DNA of 64,000 nucleotides, taken from positions 1 to 64,000 of the IMG/VR virus record IMGVR_UViG_3300036801_000174; one strand, written 5' to 3'. Positions 13,204-46,055 of the stretch are shown here, piece after piece (within the stretch, counting starts at the first letter, position 1; every line of letters begins with the position of its first letter). The stretch is from a virus. Under the pieces are notes generated by a model. That model worked only from the letters and a program-made list of their open reading frames with translations, did no database searches and was not told where the DNA came from. Made by a program: the position numbers and the translations under genes.

Positions 13204-13847
13204 TCACCCGCTCCCGTTGCGGATCGCGTTCATCGTGGTCCCGATCGGGCCGAGCCACCGGCCCATCTTCAGCGGCAACTGCTGGGTCTCCCAGGGCTTG
13301 AGGCCGTAGTCGATCAGATAGAAGCAGTCTCGGGCAGTTCGGGCGTCGAGTCCGGGAGGTGGTTCTGCGACTCGTCCGGTGAGCCATTCCTTGAGCCACC
13401 ACCATCCGTCGAACTCTCCGGACTGGCTGGCTCTTTTGGGCCGCTCTCAGCGTTCAGTGCCTCCTGGTATGGCTCAATCGCGGTCTTCAGTACCTTCGAG
13501 GCCGGGAGAGGAAGCACCTTCCGGGAGTCCGCCGAGTAGGGCAGCGGGATATGCGGCATTGCGTCAGGGGCCGCATAAGACCAGTCCGTGATCAGCGAGG
13601 CGAGCAGGTCATCGCGGCGCTGCAGGAGCATCTCCGCGGTCACGCGCATGCGGGGCGTCTTCTTCGGCGCCACGCTCACGCCATCCGCGGACACCTCGTC
13701 CTCTTCGTTGGCCTCGTCCTCGATCTGCCTGGCGTAGGCGCGCGTGAAGACCGCCTGGTAGGCGTCATCGTCGGCGGCTGTCAGGGCATCGATGTCCCGG
13801 AGCTCGACCCAGTGCTCCCCGGTACCACCCGGGACCTCAACGCGCAT
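13204..13847 (-). CDS. tail assembly chaperone, -1 frameshift product (G-T type)
   Basis: A predicted 214-aa fusion made when ribosomes slip -1 at the heptamer CCCAAAA (13434-13440). The new frame adds 76 residues, including FDGWWWLKEWLTG and CFYLIDYGLKPWE, and stops at 13204, 1 nt before the next ATG. This added part has no start codon or RBS of its own and its residues look conserved. By analogy with λ G-GT the fusion links tail tube and tape measure during assembly. Confidence 0.8.
13314..13847 (-). CDS. tail assembly chaperone, zero-frame product (G type)
   Basis: 177 aa, starting MRVEVPGGTGEHWVEL. Acidic and helical; it lies between the tail tube gene and the tape measure, the standard place for the chaperone. 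The slippery codons are residues 137-138 (P-K), after which the zero frame ends in low-complexity sequence. It is translated in excess over the frameshift form in comparable phages. Confidence 0.82.
   Translation of the reverse strand: MRVEVPGGTGEHWVELRDIDALTAADDDAYQAVFTRAYARQIEDEANEEDEVSADGVSVAPKKTPRMRVTAEMLLQRRDDLLASLITDWSYAAPDAMPHIPLPYSADSRKVLPLPASKVLKTAIEPYQEALNAESGPKEPASPESSTDGGGSRNGSPDESQNHLPDSTPELPETASI
13434..13440 (-). promoter_or_regulatory. -1 ribosomal slippery heptamer CCCAAAA
   Basis: On the coding strand the zero-frame codons read CCA AAA, preceded by C, giving the X XXY YYZ pattern. Slippage to CCC AAA joins the two chaperone frames. Confidence 0.8.
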
Positions 13848-24060: not shown

Positions 24061-24609
24061 ATGAGCGATGACCTGGTGACATGGCTGCGGGAGCAGATCA
24101 CGGCCGACCTGGAAGCGGCGAGGATCGTCGGCGCGGGAGGCTTTGAGCCGGAGCGATGGGATACCGACCCGCCGGGACAGGTGAACCCGGCACCCGCCCC
24201 CTACGGAGACCAGATCAACGCCGTGCTTGTGCCAGATCCCGAGGACCGGCGTGATCGCGAAAGCCTGCCCGGCTGGGTGGAGGTCGTCAGCTATAACCGG
24301 ATGCTCGGCAAACCACCTGAGGCCGACTGCCGGGACGATGACCTGCCGGTCGCGCTTGTCGACTATGGGCGGCGCGAGGTGGATCACATCTGCCGTCACG
24401 ACCCGCGCAACGTGGTCGCCCGCTGCGAGGCGGAACTGGCCATCCTGGATGAGTGCGACCTGCTGCTGAAGGTCGGCATCGCCTTCCCGGATGAGGCAGG
24501 CGTCGAGTCAGCGGAGCGGATCATGCGCCTGATCGGCGCGGCCTACCGTCACCGTGACGGCTACCTGGAGGAGTGGGCACCCGCCGCTGCCCTCCAGGGC
24601 AGCGGCTAG
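24061..24609 (+). CDS. DUF6221 family protein (long form)
   Basis: 182 aa. It shares the DUF6221 plan with the gene at 15641: LVTWLREQITADLEAARI, HICRHDPRNVVARCEAELAI and a C-terminal segment with YRHRDGYLEEW. It sits antisense between portal and protease genes and overlaps the portal stop by 4 nt. The role is unknown; two copies in one element suggest useful cargo. Confidence 0.8.
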   Translation: MSDDLVTWLREQITADLEAARIVGAGGFEPERWDTDPPGQVNPAPAPYGDQINAVLVPDPEDRRDRESLPGWVEVVSYNRMLGKPPEADCRDDDLPVALVDYGRREVDHICRHDPRNVVARCEAELAILDECDLLLKVGIAFPDEAGVESAERIMRLIGAAYRHRDGYLEEWAPAAALQGSG

Positions 24610-27600
24610 CCCGGGATCAGGCTGCAGTTGCACCGGGGATGAGCCGGCGGCATGGTGTCGCCGCTTGAGAACGGCTGCCCGAGCGGGACGCGCCCCTCCG
24701 CCTCATTGTCCAGGCAGACCGGGCAGACGATCCCCGCCGCCGGGTCGGTGAGCCAGAGGCTGTACTCCACGCCGTTCTCCGGGTACGTGTCCATGGCAGC
24801 CTGCGCCGACGCCCCGGTGACCTGATCCATGGCCGCGCCTTCAGCCACGTCCGGGGCTGCCACGGCTCCGGCCAGCTGGTCTCCGAGGTCCCGCATGCTG
24901 GTGCCGCCGGTCACGCCACCCAGGACCCGGCTGAGCACCGCCGTGAACGCGCCCGTGATGGCTGTGACCGCGGCAGCCACAGCACCAGCCAGGAACGCGC
25001 TGAGCGCCGCGTCAAGGCCGAGAGAGGCAACCTGCCGCACGGCACCCTGGGTGTCCCCGGGCGGGGCGGCCTGCACGACCCTGTCATGGCCGTTCACCAG
25101 TGCCGTGGCGGAAACCGCGCCGATGAGATAGCCGCCGGTCACGATGCCCTCAGCGACCGCAGCCAGCGGCAGCGTGATGCCCGAGGCGGCCAGCCACTCC
25201 GCCAGCCATGCGGCTGCGGCACCGTTGCGGTCCCGCTTGCCCGGTGCGTCTCCTTGCTGTGCCGGGTTGGCTGCCAGGTAGGACATGGCCATCCGGTCCA
25301 GCACGGCGGGAGTCAGTGCCCGGGAGACGGCAGCGGTGACCTGGGGTGCCCAGTAGGCGACTGCCGGGCCGTCATGTTCCCAGCCCGGCCAGACTTTTGG
25401 GGGGCTCGCAGCTTTGGTGACCTCGGCGGCGCCGAGAGGGAAGCGGCCGACATCATTGCCGCAGTGCACTGACAGGTGAGTGAACGTCACCGGGGTCTCA
25501 GGCACGGCGGCGGGGAGCGGGTCACCGGGCTCCGTGTAGGCCAGGGTGACATGCGGGTGCCAGTCAGCATGCTCGCTGGCGGACAGGTCCGCCAGCGACT
25601 CCCGGAGCTGCTCAGCACCAGGGAGCACGACCCCGGCCCATGCGGGAGTCTTCCCGTCGCTGCTGTCCGATGGCGGGAACGTGCCGATGCCGCCCACGGT
25701 CCCGGTCAAGGGCCCGGGCATTGCTGCCGCTGCGGTGCCCGCGCGTTCGCACGCTTGCATCAGTGCTACCTCGTCCACGTCCGGGCCGAGGTAGACGATG
25801 GTGATGTGGTGATCCGTGACGCCGCCCGGGACCGGATCAATCAGCCCTTCCGGCAGGTCCAGCGAGATCATGCCCGAGCGCGGGCCCAGGTCATAGCCGC
25901 TGGTGTCCTTGCGGACTTTCACCCGGGCTGCGGCGTTCAGCTGTGCCGCCTCGGCAGCGTCCACGTGGCGGAACTCGAAGTCGCGCCACGTCCCGGCCTT
26001 GCGCCGTGCCTTCTCGAACCGGCGGAACGCGGCGAGTTCGGACTTCACCACTGCGGCCTGATCCTCCGGGCCGTCCTCGTCGTCGTCCTGCCCGATGAGG
26101 TCGTAGCTGGTGATGCCGGTGTCAGCGGTGATCCCCGTTGTGGGGGTGCCGCCTTCGCCTGCTTCCTTGGCGACCGTGCCCGGCTGCGGCGGCGGCGCGG
26201 GAGGCAGCGCCTTCGGCCCGTACTCCTGCTCAGCGAGGGGCTCGGCCACCAGCGGCGGGTTCGGCAGCACACCCTGAACACCCGTGAACGCCTCGTGCGG
26301 CAGCGGGGCATCCGGGTCCGGGGCGGCGGTCTGCGCGTCGACCGGCCCGGCAACCCCGTACAGCGCCGAGAGGGGGATGGGGCCGCCGCGTGTGGTGAAG
26401 AACACCCGCGGCACCGTCTGGCCCTCGGGCTCGGCCAGGCCGAACCGCATCTCCCGGATCTCAGACGCGCCGACGACGCCGTTCTGGATGTAGATCTGGT
26501 CGGACTGGGCGACGTTGAGCTGGTCGTCCTGTTCCTCGCCGCGGTCGAACTCGAACTCCAGCGGCAGGCCCAGGTCGTCGATGATGAATGCGGACAGGAT
26601 GCCCTCGATGTGCTCCATCAGGGGCAGGTCGCCGACGCGGTGCTGCACGTCGGCCTGCGACTCGCCGGAGGAGCGGTTGACATCCTCGGTGAAGCCCAGG
26701 TCCGACGGGACCACGTGGAAACTTGCGCAGGTCTTCCGCATCAGGAAGAGGCTGAAGGTGTCGGTGAACTCTTTCTCGTTGCTCCACGTGAACTGGCTGC
26801 CGCCGGGCAGCCAGCGGATCTGGTGTTTGGCGGCCTGGTCGCCGTAGATCATGGAGTCCCAGTAGGCTTGGAAGGTCTCGATCTGGTCGGGGTTCCACGA
26901 CTCCGGGGCGCTGGCGAAGGCTTCCGGTATGTTTCCTTCCGTAAAGCGCTGCAAAAAGTAGATCTGGAAGCGTATGTCCGTATTCGCATTGAGCATGATC
27001 GACTCAATAGGCGCGTGGCCGTAGGGCGAGTCGCTGTGCGGGCGGAAAGGCTCGTAGATCAGGTCATCCCTGGTCAGCCAGCCCCACGGCAGCCCGTTCG
27101 CGTACTGGACGTACGCCTCGGCGGGCGGCTCCGGCGAATCGCCCCAGTAATCCAGCAGCGGCGCGATCAGCGTCCCGTCAACCGGCTTCAGCCCGATGCA
27201 CTGCCCCGCGCGGTTGCGCATCCGGTACAGCGCCCCGGCGTCGTAGGCGAGAATGTCGTACGCGTACTTGGCGAACCAGGCCTTGAAACTCTGCTTGCGG
27301 TCAGGCTTCTTCAGCGCCTTCTGCGCAAGCGCAATCGCGCCGGTAACGTCCCCGGTGTAGCCCTGGGTAGCGATCAGCTTCCACTTCAGGCTGCGGATCG
27401 AGTCAATCCTGTGCCAGATACATATGTCCGCAACGTCGTAGGCCCCTATAAGGCCCTTGAGCGCATCGAAACTGACCCGCTCATGCGTCCTCGGGCGGGT
27501 CGCCACGTTGTACGACGTGGTGTAATCAAGGACGCGGGGAGTGCGGGAATACCCGTCATACGGCCCGACCGGCTCACCTGGGGAGAACGGGTGATCGGGG

Positions 27601-27731
27601 CCCATCTGCGAGACGCCGGCCGCCGCCTGGTGCATCGCTTCGGGACCGGGCCCGGCCAGTGTCTCCACGTCAGTGCCGAGGGCTTTGGCGGCGCGGGTCA
27701 GCGTCCCTGCGATGCGAGTGCGGACGCCCAT
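24606..27731 (-). CDS. portal - 2H phosphoesterase - MuF-like fusion
   Basis: 1041 aa. Residues 1 to about 440 are a portal protein (WHRIDSIRSLKWKL, RDDLIYEPFRPHSDSPYGH, FTWSNEKEFTDTF, and a C-terminal VVPSDLGFTEDVNRSSGE). Residues about 615-770 carry the two HxT motifs of 2H phosphoesterases (HHIT at 641-644, HPHVT at 725-729), each after a β-strand. The C-terminus (about 900-1041) ends with the MuF-type Cys/His pattern CPVC...PPAHPRCNC. Portal-MuF fusions are known; a 2H domain between them is unusual and its two motifs are intact. The portal is the DNA gate; the MuF part goes into the head. Confidence 0.88.
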   Translation of the reverse strand: MGVRTRIAGTLTRAAKALGTDVETLAGPGPEAMHQAAAGVSQMGPDHPFSPGEPVGPYDGYSRTPRVLDYTTSYNVATRPRTHERVSFDALKGLIGAYDVADICIWHRIDSIRSLKWKLIATQGYTGDVTGAIALAQKALKKPDRKQSFKAWFAKYAYDILAYDAGALYRMRNRAGQCIGLKPVDGTLIAPLLDYWGDSPEPPAEAYVQYANGLPWGWLTRDDLIYEPFRPHSDSPYGHAPIESIMLNANTDIRFQIYFLQRFTEGNIPEAFASAPESWNPDQIETFQAYWDSMIYGDQAAKHQIRWLPGGSQFTWSNEKEFTDTFSLFLMRKTCASFHVVPSDLGFTEDVNRSSGESQADVQHRVGDLPLMEHIEGILSAFIIDDLGLPLEFEFDRGEEQDDQLNVAQSDQIYIQNGVVGASEIREMRFGLAEPEGQTVPRVFFTTRGGPIPLSALYGVAGPVDAQTAAPDPDAPLPHEAFTGVQGVLPNPPLVAEPLAEQEYGPKALPPAPPPQPGTVAKEAGEGGTPTTGITADTGITSYDLIGQDDDEDGPEDQAAVVKSELAAFRRFEKARRKAGTWRDFEFRHVDAAEAAQLNAAARVKVRKDTSGYDLGPRSGMISLDLPEGLIDPVPGGVTDHHITIVYLGPDVDEVALMQACERAGTAAAAMPGPLTGTVGGIGTFPPSDSSDGKTPAWAGVVLPGAEQLRESLADLSASEHADWHPHVTLAYTEPGDPLPAAVPETPVTFTHLSVHCGNDVGRFPLGAAEVTKAASPPKVWPGWEHDGPAVAYWAPQVTAAVSRALTPAVLDRMAMSYLAANPAQQGDAPGKRDRNGAAAAWLAEWLAASGITLPLAAVAEGIVTGGYLIGAVSATALVNGHDRVVQAAPPGDTQGAVRQVASLGLDAALSAFLAGAVAAAVTAITGAFTAVLSRVLGGVTGGTSMRDLGDQLAGAVAAPDVAEGAAMDQVTGASAQAAMDTYPENGVEYSLWLTDPAAGIVCPVCLDNEAEGRVPLGQPFSSGDTMPPAHPRCNCSLIPG

Positions 27732-28131: not shown

Positions 28132-29816
28132 CTAGCCGCTTGACACCATGAACCGCTGGTCCCTGAACGCCACGTCACGCAGCCGCTTGCGGGCCTCTTC
28201 CGGGGTCTCGGGGGCTGGCCCGGGCTCTGGTGAGGGCAGGGCTGGAGGCTCGTCAGCGAGCGGCTCAGGACCGGCTGCGGCCAGTTGCTCGGCCTTGCGC
28301 TTGGCCCAGTCGATCCACGCATCGGCTCCGCCGCCGCCGAGGTTGACCGTCAGGTACCTGAGAGCATCACAGGCATGATCGGCCGCTTTGGGGTCGGCGT
28401 CCTCAGGTGATCCAGAACGGGCGTATGGGAGGTTCTCAAGTTCCTCGATCAGCTTCGGGCAGGTCCGGAAGATATGAATCCGCGGGCACGTCTCGAGCCC
28501 GTTTGCCCGGTGGTGAGGACACGCCGGTGCTTCGGCCATGTACGAATGGATCCGCTGCCAGCCCGTGATCCGGCTGCCCGGCCCCTTGCCCGCCTTGGTC
28601 AGGTATACGCCGTTCTGCGCATACATCCGCTCCTTTGGCAGGGCATCGCCTTCAAGGTTCCACATTGAGTCGTCAGCCCAGCGTGTCATGACGTGCTCGT
28701 CGCTGGCCTCGGCCGCCAGGATGCGCCTGGCCTGGTCCGACTCGCGGACGCCTGACTCGTAGATCTCTCTGTAGACCCACAGACGCTTGTCGGGGTCAAC
28801 CGAGCCCCAGAGCACCGCGAACGGGCTGGCGAACCCCCAGTCAATCCCGTTGTAGCGGTTCCACGATGGCGGCAGCGCGATGGGGTCCATGGTGTGGCGC
28901 TCGTAGTCGTACTCGGTGAAGATCTGGCCGGCGAACAGGTCCCACCTGCCGTCCCGCATCGCGGCCTGGCGCGCCGGGTCGGTGATGGCGTCCAGACGGC
29001 GGAAGTACGCCTCGTCCAGCCACGGGTTATCAGTGGCCTTCGCCTGGATGAACCGCACCGTGAGGCCGTGCTTATCGGTGATGACCTTGGAGCCATGCTC
29101 AGTTGGCTTTATATACCGTTCGCGAACCTCGCCGTGAGACGGGCCGCCCGGGTTTGTGGTGCAGCGCACCCCGATCACCGGCACGTCGCCAGCGGCACGC
29201 AGGCGCTCGTAGCGGAGGATGTCAACTACCCCTGGCGCCAGGAGCGTGAGTTCGTCTACCAGCAAAAGTTGGTATTCTCCACCTTGACGCCTAGAAGCGT
29301 CGTCTTTGGTCTCAAGGTAGCGGAACCGGAATTTGCTCCCATTAGGAAAGCTCAGTTCCCGGGAACTGCCGTTCCAGTGACCGCCGACGGCCTCGCCGAA
29401 CTCGAACTTCCGCAGCGCGGGGAAGATGGACTCCTCGAGCTCGTCATACGTGCGGCGCACCAGCAGGACGCGCAGCCCCGGATGTCTCGCACAAGCCCGG
29501 ATGCCCTCGGCCACGAGGGCCGCACTTTTCCCCCACCAGCCGCCCCTCCGTAGAGGACGTCGGCTTCAGTGGCGGCGTGGAAACGCTCCTGCGGGCACTT
29601 CCCGCAAGGCTCAGGCACCGGCACTGCGGCGCCGTTCCGCACCGCGATCTGCGCCAGGGCGCGCGGCTTGCAGATCGGCTCGTAGCCGATCAGCGAGAAC
29701 ACGTCCATCGCGGCCATGTGCGCCGTGTCCCGGCGTTCCTTCTCGGCACGCAGGGACCGCAGCTCGACGAGCTTCGCAGCCCGGATCTCAGTTAGCGAGC
29801 GGAAGTCCGGCATCAT
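28132..29816 (-). CDS. terL: large terminase (TerL), split by -1 frameshift at Walker A
   Basis: The first frame (29816-29352) encodes the N-terminus up to LYGGAAGGGK and then runs into nonsense. The second frame is open from there to 28132 and continues exactly with SAALVAEGIRACARHPG. Joined at AAA/AGT the product is 561 aa with Walker A GGAAGGGKS, Walker B LLLVDEL, and nuclease motifs GIDWGFASPFAVLWG and AADHACDALRYL. The junction is G5A4 on the coding strand, containing GGGAAAA (29526-29532), a possible slippery heptamer. It could be programmed slippage, a real indel or a homopolymer sequencing error. Confidence 0.85.
29526..29532 (-). promoter_or_regulatory. possible slippery heptamer GGGAAAA in terL Walker A
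   Basis: Zero-frame codons GGA AAA are preceded by G; slippage to GGG AAA restores the ATPase frame precisely between Lys and Ser of Walker A. Confidence 0.45.
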
Positions 29817-30225
29817 CCTGCAGGGCCATCTCCAGTTTCAGTTCCTCGAGCTGGCGGTCAATCTCGGAGATCGCCAGGTACTCGTGCCGGTCAGGCGCAT
29901 CCAGGCCCAGCAGCTTGGAGCGGCGCTCCGACCATCCGCGAGCCCCGGTCCATGCCTCCACCTTCGTGCGCGGCGACGTGTGCTCGTCCCGCGCGATCAC
30001 CAGCAGCGCCGAGAGCGCGTCCTCGATCAGCAGCAGTTCCTCGGCGCGGGCTTCCTCAACGTGCGCGGCCGGGATCATCGCCAGGGCCTTGGAGTACAGC
30101 TGGCTCACACGCGGCTGCGAGATGCCGAGCCGGCGCGCGATCTCGTCCTGCGTGAGGCGCTGGCGGCGCATCTCGACGACCTGCGCCAGGCGGTCGGCCT
30201 GAGAGGGCGTCATGCGCCGTGCCAT
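29788..30225 (-). CDS. terS: small terminase subunit (TerS)
   Basis: 145 aa. A HTH near the N-terminus (LTQDEIARRLGISQPRVSQL) is followed by long helices (EELLLIEDALSALLVIA; AISEIDRQLEELKLEMA), typical of TerS DNA recognition and oligomerisation. It overlaps the start of terL by 29 nt. Confidence 0.85.
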   Translation of the reverse strand: MARRMTPSQADRLAQVVEMRRQRLTQDEIARRLGISQPRVSQLYSKALAMIPAAHVEEARAEELLLIEDALSALLVIARDEHTSPRTKVEAWTGARGWSERRSKLLGLDAPDRHEYLAISEIDRQLEELKLEMALQDDAGLPLAN

Positions 30226-30254: not shown

Positions 30255-31364
30255 TCAGGCTGCGAACAGTTCGCCCTGCACCCACTTGAGGGTGGCGGGT
30301 TCTGGCTTAGCGGCCGATCGCTCAGGCGCCGCCAGCCACGCATCAGCAATGTCGAGGACTAGCGCCAGGCACGAGACGTCGAAGTATTCGCGGCCTCTGA
30401 CGGGGGCTTCTCTGGCCAGCGAGAGTGCACCCTTCACGGCATTCTCCGTGTCGAGTGCCAGCGTGCCGGGCAGCCCGGTGACCAGCCGCACCACGTCGCC
30501 GTAGCCGTCCTTAGCGTGCGCGAGCAGCCGCTGCTTGCCGTTGCCGGTCGTGACGCCGAACTTGACCACGGAGTTGCCCGTGACGACGTAGAACGCGTCG
30601 AACTCGGTGCGGGCGCAGAGCCGGCAGAGGCCGTCCCCGGACAGCACGTAGTGCGGCTTCGGGTAGCAGTCGTGGCCTGCCTTGCAGCGAACGTGCAAGG
30701 CGTGCTCTACGCCTCGGTACTCGTCGTAGATCGGCGTCGCGCCCAGTTCGGCAAGGCGCGCCCGGAACGCCGCATCGATTACCGCGGGATCACGCCCGCT
30801 GCAGATGGCGCAGATTGCCTTGCCTTGCTGCACGGACTGCCCGGTCGGATAACAATCGTGACCCTCGGAGCACTGGACATGAACCTTGGTGCGGGCGTTC
30901 CGGTAGGGCTCAAGCGCCACCGCACCCATTGCTTTCACGCGGGCATAGAACTCGGCCTCTGCTGTGTCCCGATCAAGACCCACACAGATCCGGCATGCCC
31001 CGCGCCCGCGCTGAAGTTCCCCGGGGCGCGTACGGCAGCGATGCCCGGCGGGGCAGAGAACATCGTGGGGGGTGTTCCGGCCGCGATACCTCTCGTACAG
31101 CGACGTGCAGCCGAGTTCCGCCAAGCGCTTGAGGAACGCGGCCTCTGTGGCAACGGGATCCTTGCCGGCGCATTTGATGCAGATGCCCCGGCCCTGCTGG
31201 ACGCAATTCGGGCGCGGTCGGCAATCATGACCTGCGCGGCAGCGCGCGCGGTGGGGTTGCTGAGCACCAAGCCACTCGGTCTCGAGTAACTCCGCCCCGA
31301 GTTCCTTGAGGCGGTGGCGGAAGGCCGACTCGGCCGCCAGCGACTGGGCGGTGCGTCCGGCCAC
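30255..31364 (-). CDS. four-repeat zinc protein with GIY-YIG-like C-terminus
   Basis: 369 aa. Four tandem units of about 60 aa (roughly 13-72, 73-134, 135-195, 196-255) each begin with a F-x2-R-x3-LG helix, then CxxGHxC and a C-terminal CxxC, so each can bind zinc. The C-terminal segment (about 258-340) reads FYVVTGNSVVKFGVTTG, RLLAHAKDGYG, close to the T5orf172/MUG113 branch of the GIY-YIG nuclease fold. It lies just upstream of terS. The repeats may read DNA, as in homing enzymes. Function is inferred. Confidence 0.7.
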   Translation of the reverse strand: MAGRTAQSLAAESAFRHRLKELGAELLETEWLGAQQPHRARCRAGHDCRPRPNCVQQGRGICIKCAGKDPVATEAAFLKRLAELGCTSLYERYRGRNTPHDVLCPAGHRCRTRPGELQRGRGACRICVGLDRDTAEAEFYARVKAMGAVALEPYRNARTKVHVQCSEGHDCYPTGQSVQQGKAICAICSGRDPAVIDAAFRARLAELGATPIYDEYRGVEHALHVRCKAGHDCYPKPHYVLSGDGLCRLCARTEFDAFYVVTGNSVVKFGVTTGNGKQRLLAHAKDGYGDVVRLVTGLPGTLALDTENAVKGALSLAREAPVRGREYFDVSCLALVLDIADAWLAAPERSAAKPEPATLKWVQGELFAA

Positions 31365-44677: not shown

Positions 44678-44811
44678 GACGACTCCTCGCCGCGGACGTA
44701 GCGTCCGCCCTGGACCTGCCACCCGAAGGAGGCCAGCAGCGGATTGGGATGCGGTGTGCCGTCCTTGGCATCCTCCCGGCCCTGAAGGGGCCAGGATTCC
44801 CGGGCGCTCAT
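44674..44811 (-). CDS. possible 45-aa peptide between TnpB and WhiB
   Basis: ATG 44811 overlaps the TnpB stop (ATGA), has GGAG 6 nt upstream, and its stop overlaps the WhiB start. It reads MSARESWPLQGREDAKDG at the start. The region could instead hold the TnpB right end and guide RNA. Confidence 0.4.
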   Translation of the reverse strand: MSARESWPLQGREDAKDGTPHPNPLLASFGWQVQGGRYVRGEESS

Positions 44812-46055
44812 GCCGCGCTCCGGGCGGTTCCCGCCGCCGCGAACTGCGCGGGCTTCTGCGGGCATAGAGCCGGGTGCCCCCCGGCGTGCGCAGGGATTTC
44901 GCCGCCAGTGGCGATGAGTCCCCGGGCAAGTACATTGCGCGCGGCATTTACATCGGCGTGGTCTTCGTGGCCGCACTCCTGGCACCGGAAGACCGCTTGG
45001 CTCTCGCGGTTCAGGGCGTTGGTGTGGCCGCAGATGTGGCACTGCTGCGAGGTGAATCTAGGGTTGACGAACAGGACCGTGACATCGGACGCCGCAGCCT
45101 TTTGCTCTAGCCGAGTGGCGAGGGTGCCCCAGCAGGAAGTCAGAATGCCCCGGCTCAGGCTGGCCTTGGCCCGGGCTCCGTTGCGAAGGAATGCGCTTGG
45201 CTGGCCAGGATCAGGCTTCGGCGCGGGCCTTCGGGTCATGCCCGCGATGTTCAGCTTCTCCAGCACGATCAGGTCGTTCTCACGGACCATGCGCGTGCTG
45301 ACCTTCTCCGCCCAGTCCTTGCGCCGGTCGACAGTGCCCGCAGTGATGCGTGCCATGGCCAGCACGGTGCGCTTCCGTTTCGCTGAGCCCTTCTGCTGCC
45401 GGGCCCGCTTGCGAGCGAGGGTGCAATAGCGTGCGGCGTCCCGGTCACCGATCCTCGGGGCCCGGTAGTGCTGGCCGCCCGAGGTCACCAGTGCAGTACG
45501 AACGCTGCGGTCAATACCGATGCGGCTGCCCGAGGGCTCACGGACAACGGCAGGCTGCAACGCAGCGAATGACACGTGCCACCGCCCGGCCCGGTCCAGG
45601 GTGACCCGGTAAGACTTGGCCTCGGGGACCGAACGGGACCAGCGGAAACGTACCCAGCCAAGCTTGGGAATCTGAACTGCGCCCCAGTGCCGCGACTGGC
45701 GCTTGACGCGGTAGCCGCGCCCTAGGTCATGAACCCGGAATCCCTCATTGCGCCCGGCCTTGCGCCAGGTCGGGTGCCCATGCGTGCGACCGAAGAAGTT
45801 CTGCATCGCCTGAGCGAAATCCCTGAGCGCTTGGCCCTGGACTTCAGAACTGCCAGCGCGCAGCCAGTCGAATTCGCTACGGGCCTCGGTAAGTTGCCGC
45901 GACTGCTCTGCGTAGCCGGGTGCGTTCTTGCGCCCGGGCCGCCACCAGGACTGCTGCTCGACCGCCAGGTTCCAGACGAACCGGGCGTGGGCGCAGTGCT
46001 CGCGCAGGATCAACTCCTGGGCAGGCGTCGGGTAGAGCCGGTATCGGGTGCTCAT
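44808..46055 (-). CDS. tnpB: TnpB RNA-guided nuclease (IS200/IS605 type)
   Basis: 415 aa, full length. RuvC residues are intact: D182 in GIDRSVRTALV, E266 in IVLEKLNIAG, D368 in DHADVNAARN. The zinc finger is C339-x2-C342...C358-x2-C361. No tnpA is beside it. Both ends overlap neighbouring genes by ATGA, so there is no room for an IS left end upstream. Its guide RNA, if present, would overlap the 3' end near 44700-44900. It may be domesticated. Confidence 0.9.
   Translation of the reverse strand: MSTRYRLYPTPAQELILREHCAHARFVWNLAVEQQSWWRPGRKNAPGYAEQSRQLTEARSEFDWLRAGSSEVQGQALRDFAQAMQNFFGRTHGHPTWRKAGRNEGFRVHDLGRGYRVKRQSRHWGAVQIPKLGWVRFRWSRSVPEAKSYRVTLDRAGRWHVSFAALQPAVVREPSGSRIGIDRSVRTALVTSGGQHYRAPRIGDRDAARYCTLARKRARQQKGSAKRKRTVLAMARITAGTVDRRKDWAEKVSTRMVRENDLIVLEKLNIAGMTRRPAPKPDPGQPSAFLRNGARAKASLSRGILTSCWGTLATRLEQKAAASDVTVLFVNPRFTSQQCHICGHTNALNRESQAVFRCQECGHEDHADVNAARNVLARGLIATGGEIPAHAGGHPALCPQKPAQFAAAGTARSAA

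Follow-up and report, generated by a model that had tools for sequence, protein, structure and literature searches.

Tandem -1 slippage on an X_XXY_YYZ heptamer is known in phage late genes from the lambda-type G/GT tail-assembly chaperone (Xu, Hendrix and Duda 2004, as cited in PMC5009743). The heptamer GGGAAAA has been proposed as the slip site in the tail chaperone of the Microbacterium phage Bush (PMC11749239), and corynephage phi16 combines GAGG, GGGGGAA and a pseudoknot (PMC5506516). In the dnaX-type signal, a slippery site is accompanied by an upstream Shine-Dalgarno (SD)-like element and a downstream hairpin, and both products are used. For terminase, recoding has been suggested for the Microbacterium prophage vB_MoxS-R1 (PMC9030533), where it is ascribed to GGT-AGC, and for Streptomyces phage Hau3, where it is ascribed to bypass of a UUA-linked coding gap (PMC5009743). 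A split terL in Gordonia phage Nyceirae (KX557282), mentioned in PMC9030533, is divided between the ATPase and nuclease domains. None of these lies at G_GGA_AAA in the P-loop. In the papers searched, which did not include most subscription articles and preprints, we found no report of a P-loop frameshift in TerL. The P-loop is also interrupted by inteins of the TerL1-a type, which sit exactly at the K|S/T junction (PMC5050341).

Here we examined a large terminase gene whose reading frame changes at this junction. The analysed window comprises 64,000 nt (positions 1 to 64,000) of the 73,382-base IMG/VR virus record IMGVR_UViG_3300036801_000174, has a GC content of 68% and carries portal, tape-measure and other long structural genes on the minus strand. 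A sequence-only reading had noticed that TerL is split inside Walker A at a slippery-like G5A4 run and had offered either frameshift-dependent synthesis or a disabling indel or sequencing error. The observation is correct. On the minus strand, the frame-0 ORF (29816->29352) reads through YGGAAGGGK (29526..29816, 97 codons) and then continues for 57 unrelated codons to its stop (29352..29525). The -1 frame (28132..29526, 464 codons) continues with AGT, the Ser of Walker A, as S-AALVAEG to the stop at 28132, base 29526 being read twice. The run is G5A4 at 29534-29526, and the heptamer G_GGA_AAA at 29532-29526 lies in the X_XXY_YYZ register of the zero frame. In contrast to translational bypassing as in T4 gene 60 or Hau3 terminase, there is no coding gap; a single base is re-read. 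No intein coding sequence is present between K and S.

To assess whether both parts encode one protein, the fusion was aligned with five single-ORF relatives. It aligned without a gap through the P-loop, with GGGKS across the join and LLLVDE, DWG, ADD and DH conserved. Fusing the parts improved the Pfam Terminase_3 (PF04466) hit from 1.9e-6 to 1.6e-9 and extended it from profile position 33 to 5, and the gene matches phrog_2, terminase large subunit, at 3.9e-28. The GC-frame plot switches its third-position signal at the same place; a codon-usage frame scan of the window gave mostly gene-junction calls. The heptamer is the only strict slippery heptamer in terL, and only 2 occur in the 7,429 codons of ten long minus-strand ORFs of the window, the -1 part of terL among them. 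In these ORFs GGA (34 of 832 Gly codons) and AAA (32 of 272 Lys codons) are rare, and the nearest relatives encode the same loop mostly with GGC/AAG codons in one frame. The record holds one terL copy. It lies between the portal region and an HTH gene (29788..30225, minus strand) that is by position the probable small terminase subunit. The portal protein (24606-27731, minus strand) has 1041 aa and an additional 2'-5' RNA ligase superfamily domain (PF13563) in its C-terminal half. Directly upstream of the terminase genes, an endonuclease-like gene (30255-31364, minus strand; phrog_559 HNH endonuclease, weak CapR domain) carries repeated Cys-rich units. The window also holds a tail-assembly-chaperone-like gene (13204-13847, minus strand) upstream of the tape-measure gene, with a canonical C_CCA_AAA heptamer (13440-13434) and a 76-codon -1 extension, an ordinary example of the same mechanism in the same genome. 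This gene has no PHROG match and is named by position and layout.

It is conceivable that the terL break is a sequencing or assembly indel in the G/A run, as the window is a single record on a long branch without reads. Exact-DNA searches found no second assembly of this virus in IMG/VR and only chance hits in gut Bacillota, and a single-protein search of genome contigs found no relative. We asked whether the break recurs elsewhere. An alignment-based scan gave 80 TerL loci (loci here and below are numbered with the prefix L). Nearly all have an intact P-loop, two (L039 and L040) have an intein at K|S/T, and one (L094) breaks at the same base. IMG/VR was then scanned, without a limit on the number of hits, for the P-loop with A4 followed by C or G, leaving the wobble base before GGA free, which gave 95 stretches. 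Every frame-broken TerL in the result has G at that base and resumes in the -1 frame with Ser or Thr, and none has A, C or T there. These are 28 records including the window, forming 20 clusters at 95%, 12 at 80% and 5 at 40% identity, and the frame-0 tail varies from 3 to 116 codons among relatives. The remaining TerL-like hits, about 30 loci besides three that were checked against Pfam, run on in frame 0 for several hundred codons, as intein insertions do, with any of the four bases at that position. LAGLIDADG/Hint domains were confirmed in these three (L039:755-3856, L040:854-3856 and L139:987-3659). First residues V, G, A or D of the insertions may point to class 3 inteins. Other hits are glycine-rich non-TerL proteins, and one pattern hit in 394 Bacillota genomes (L471) is not TerL. 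Intact GGN-GGA-AAA-AGT TerLs have G at the wobble position in 2 of 91 distinct sequences of a size-limited sample. This specificity alone is not proof, because intact G6A4 and G5A5 TerLs are common and a deletion in a G-run would also give G. No broken P-loop was seen in the few isolated-phage hits examined, and nearby phage and plasmid hits (Gordonia GMA6, Roseobacter CRP-235, Amycolatopsis pAmyja1) are annotated with a single terminase CDS.

The argument is instead carried by persistence and synonymous constraint. Pairs of broken genes differ at dS 0.24-1.5, while dN/dS is 0.06-0.11 in the -1 part for the close pairs and 0.07-0.26 in the frame-0 part; more distant pairs give 0.14-0.39. A break that has lasted that long in genes under purifying selection has to be read through. 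The same break is also found in two separate IMG taxa with 26-prefixed and 29-prefixed numbers (L094 and L107), and no broken TerL was found with A5 turned to A4 outside the slippery context. It seems unlikely, therefore, that the window's break is merely an error, although this cannot be excluded for the single record without reads. A real disabling deletion in a defective phage or prophage appears even less likely. A P-loop break without rescue would abolish packaging, and a transposase-like gene is present (44808-46055, minus strand; phrog_506, 3.2e-75). However, the other 1,395 nt of the -1 part are open and motif-complete, other long structural genes are intact, and identical breaks persist elsewhere with dN/dS of about 0.1. 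That two separate polypeptides, the second started at an internal GTG (29514), 12 nt downstream of the tract, or at an ATG, assemble into TerL is a remote possibility. It would cut the P-loop between K and S and leave the -1 codon directly after AAA free to vary, but this codon is Ser or Thr in all 28 records.

In a clade recovered by its TKALIMD motif, mostly from a few metagenome series, eight broken genes (L472, L473, L478, L514, L538, L539, L297 and L304) show synonymous change of 0/112 over codons -4 to -1 and 7/189 over +1 to +8, against 0.39 and 0.41 in the flanks. Fifty-two intact relatives show 0.46-0.49 everywhere. The constrained block is the heptamer, the 5-nt spacer and the hairpin. 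The eight genes share a nearly identical stretch of about 36 nt around the slip site although they are scattered over the tree of the C part (7 changes). Short-tract gene conversion of this cassette is thus an alternative to pure constraint, but either way it is retained as a unit.

To examine candidate stimulators, synonymous codons were redrawn with the protein sequence held fixed. Broken clusters fold more stably just after the slip site than intact ones, with a mean z of -1.33 at 60 nt, the length used beforehand (p=0.011), -1.62 at 40 nt (p=0.002) and -1.96 at 26 nt, which was chosen after inspection (p=1e-4). The window has a perfect 7-bp hairpin, GCCCTCG-TGGC-CGAGGGC (29503..29520, minus strand), beginning after a 5-nt spacer. 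Its stability (-13.7 kcal/mol, z -1.99) gives p=0.058 alone and is ordinary against dinucleotide shuffles. A Shine-Dalgarno-like GGAGG (29545..29549, minus strand) sits 12 nt upstream of the heptamer, inside the 9-14 nt range given for -1 shifts (PMC5009743), but its enrichment in broken clusters over intact genes is not significant (p=0.11). Transcriptional slippage on the G5A4 run could in principle supply the in-frame mRNA. In its favour, L493 and L495 (88% identical), two related TerLs, both carry a +1 break in a G6 run with low dN/dS (dN 0.085 against dS 0.9-1.3) and also seem to be maintained; L537 has another G-run indel. These three do not fit the -1 heptamer and may reflect +1 recoding, transcriptional slippage or error, and they indicate that such runs do break in other ways. 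However, the run is short and mixed, and the conserved downstream hairpin and the codon register fit tandem tRNA slippage. We consider transcriptional slippage very unlikely.

Our data favour the first alternative of the sequence-only reading, that TerL is made by programmed -1 ribosomal frameshifting inside the Walker A loop. We consider this very probable for this class of TerL and, somewhat less firmly, probable for the window. In this model, ribosomes decode GGG GGA AAA, the tRNAs on GGA in the P site and AAA in the A site slip back one base onto GGG AAA, and AGT is read next, which restores GGGKS. The hairpin, and possibly GGAGG, may raise the slip rate. Ribosomes that do not slip would make a short inactive N-terminal product, so that the slip would set the TerL dose. 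That the slip happens in this phage, its efficiency and the dosage role are inferred. Compared to the lambda-type chaperone, the target is the packaging ATPase, the shift lies near the start of the gene inside a catalytic motif, and the shifted product is the only functional one. Compared to dnaX, the candidate stimulators are arranged similarly, but the heptamer is G_GGA_AAA instead of A_AAA_AAG.

In the actinophage-type clade, the broken state needs at least four to five changes. The window is a single row, L094/L107 a pair, L281/L298/L325/L336 a quartet and L292 a recent single, and L284 groups with L315/L346. The state has therefore arisen, or been lost and regained, repeatedly. As TerL inteins can have active endonucleases (PMC5050341), one might speculate that the broken DNA escapes the homing endonucleases of inteins that invade exactly this K|S/T site, with the slippery heptamer making the escape viable and then becoming fixed as a dose control of the packaging motor. 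The coincidence of break and intein site, the repeated origins and the scatter of the 36-nt cassette would fit this idea, which remains doubtful. TerL is a widely used phage marker gene and the motor of genome packaging. If its synthesis in many phages depends on ribosome slippage inside the ATP-binding loop, then motor dosage is set at translation, gene callers and marker-gene surveys miss or split these TerLs, and frame-broken terminases now dismissed as errors are a testable class of recoding. It also offers an experimentally easy question about how phages set motor copy number, and possibly how they evade selfish elements.
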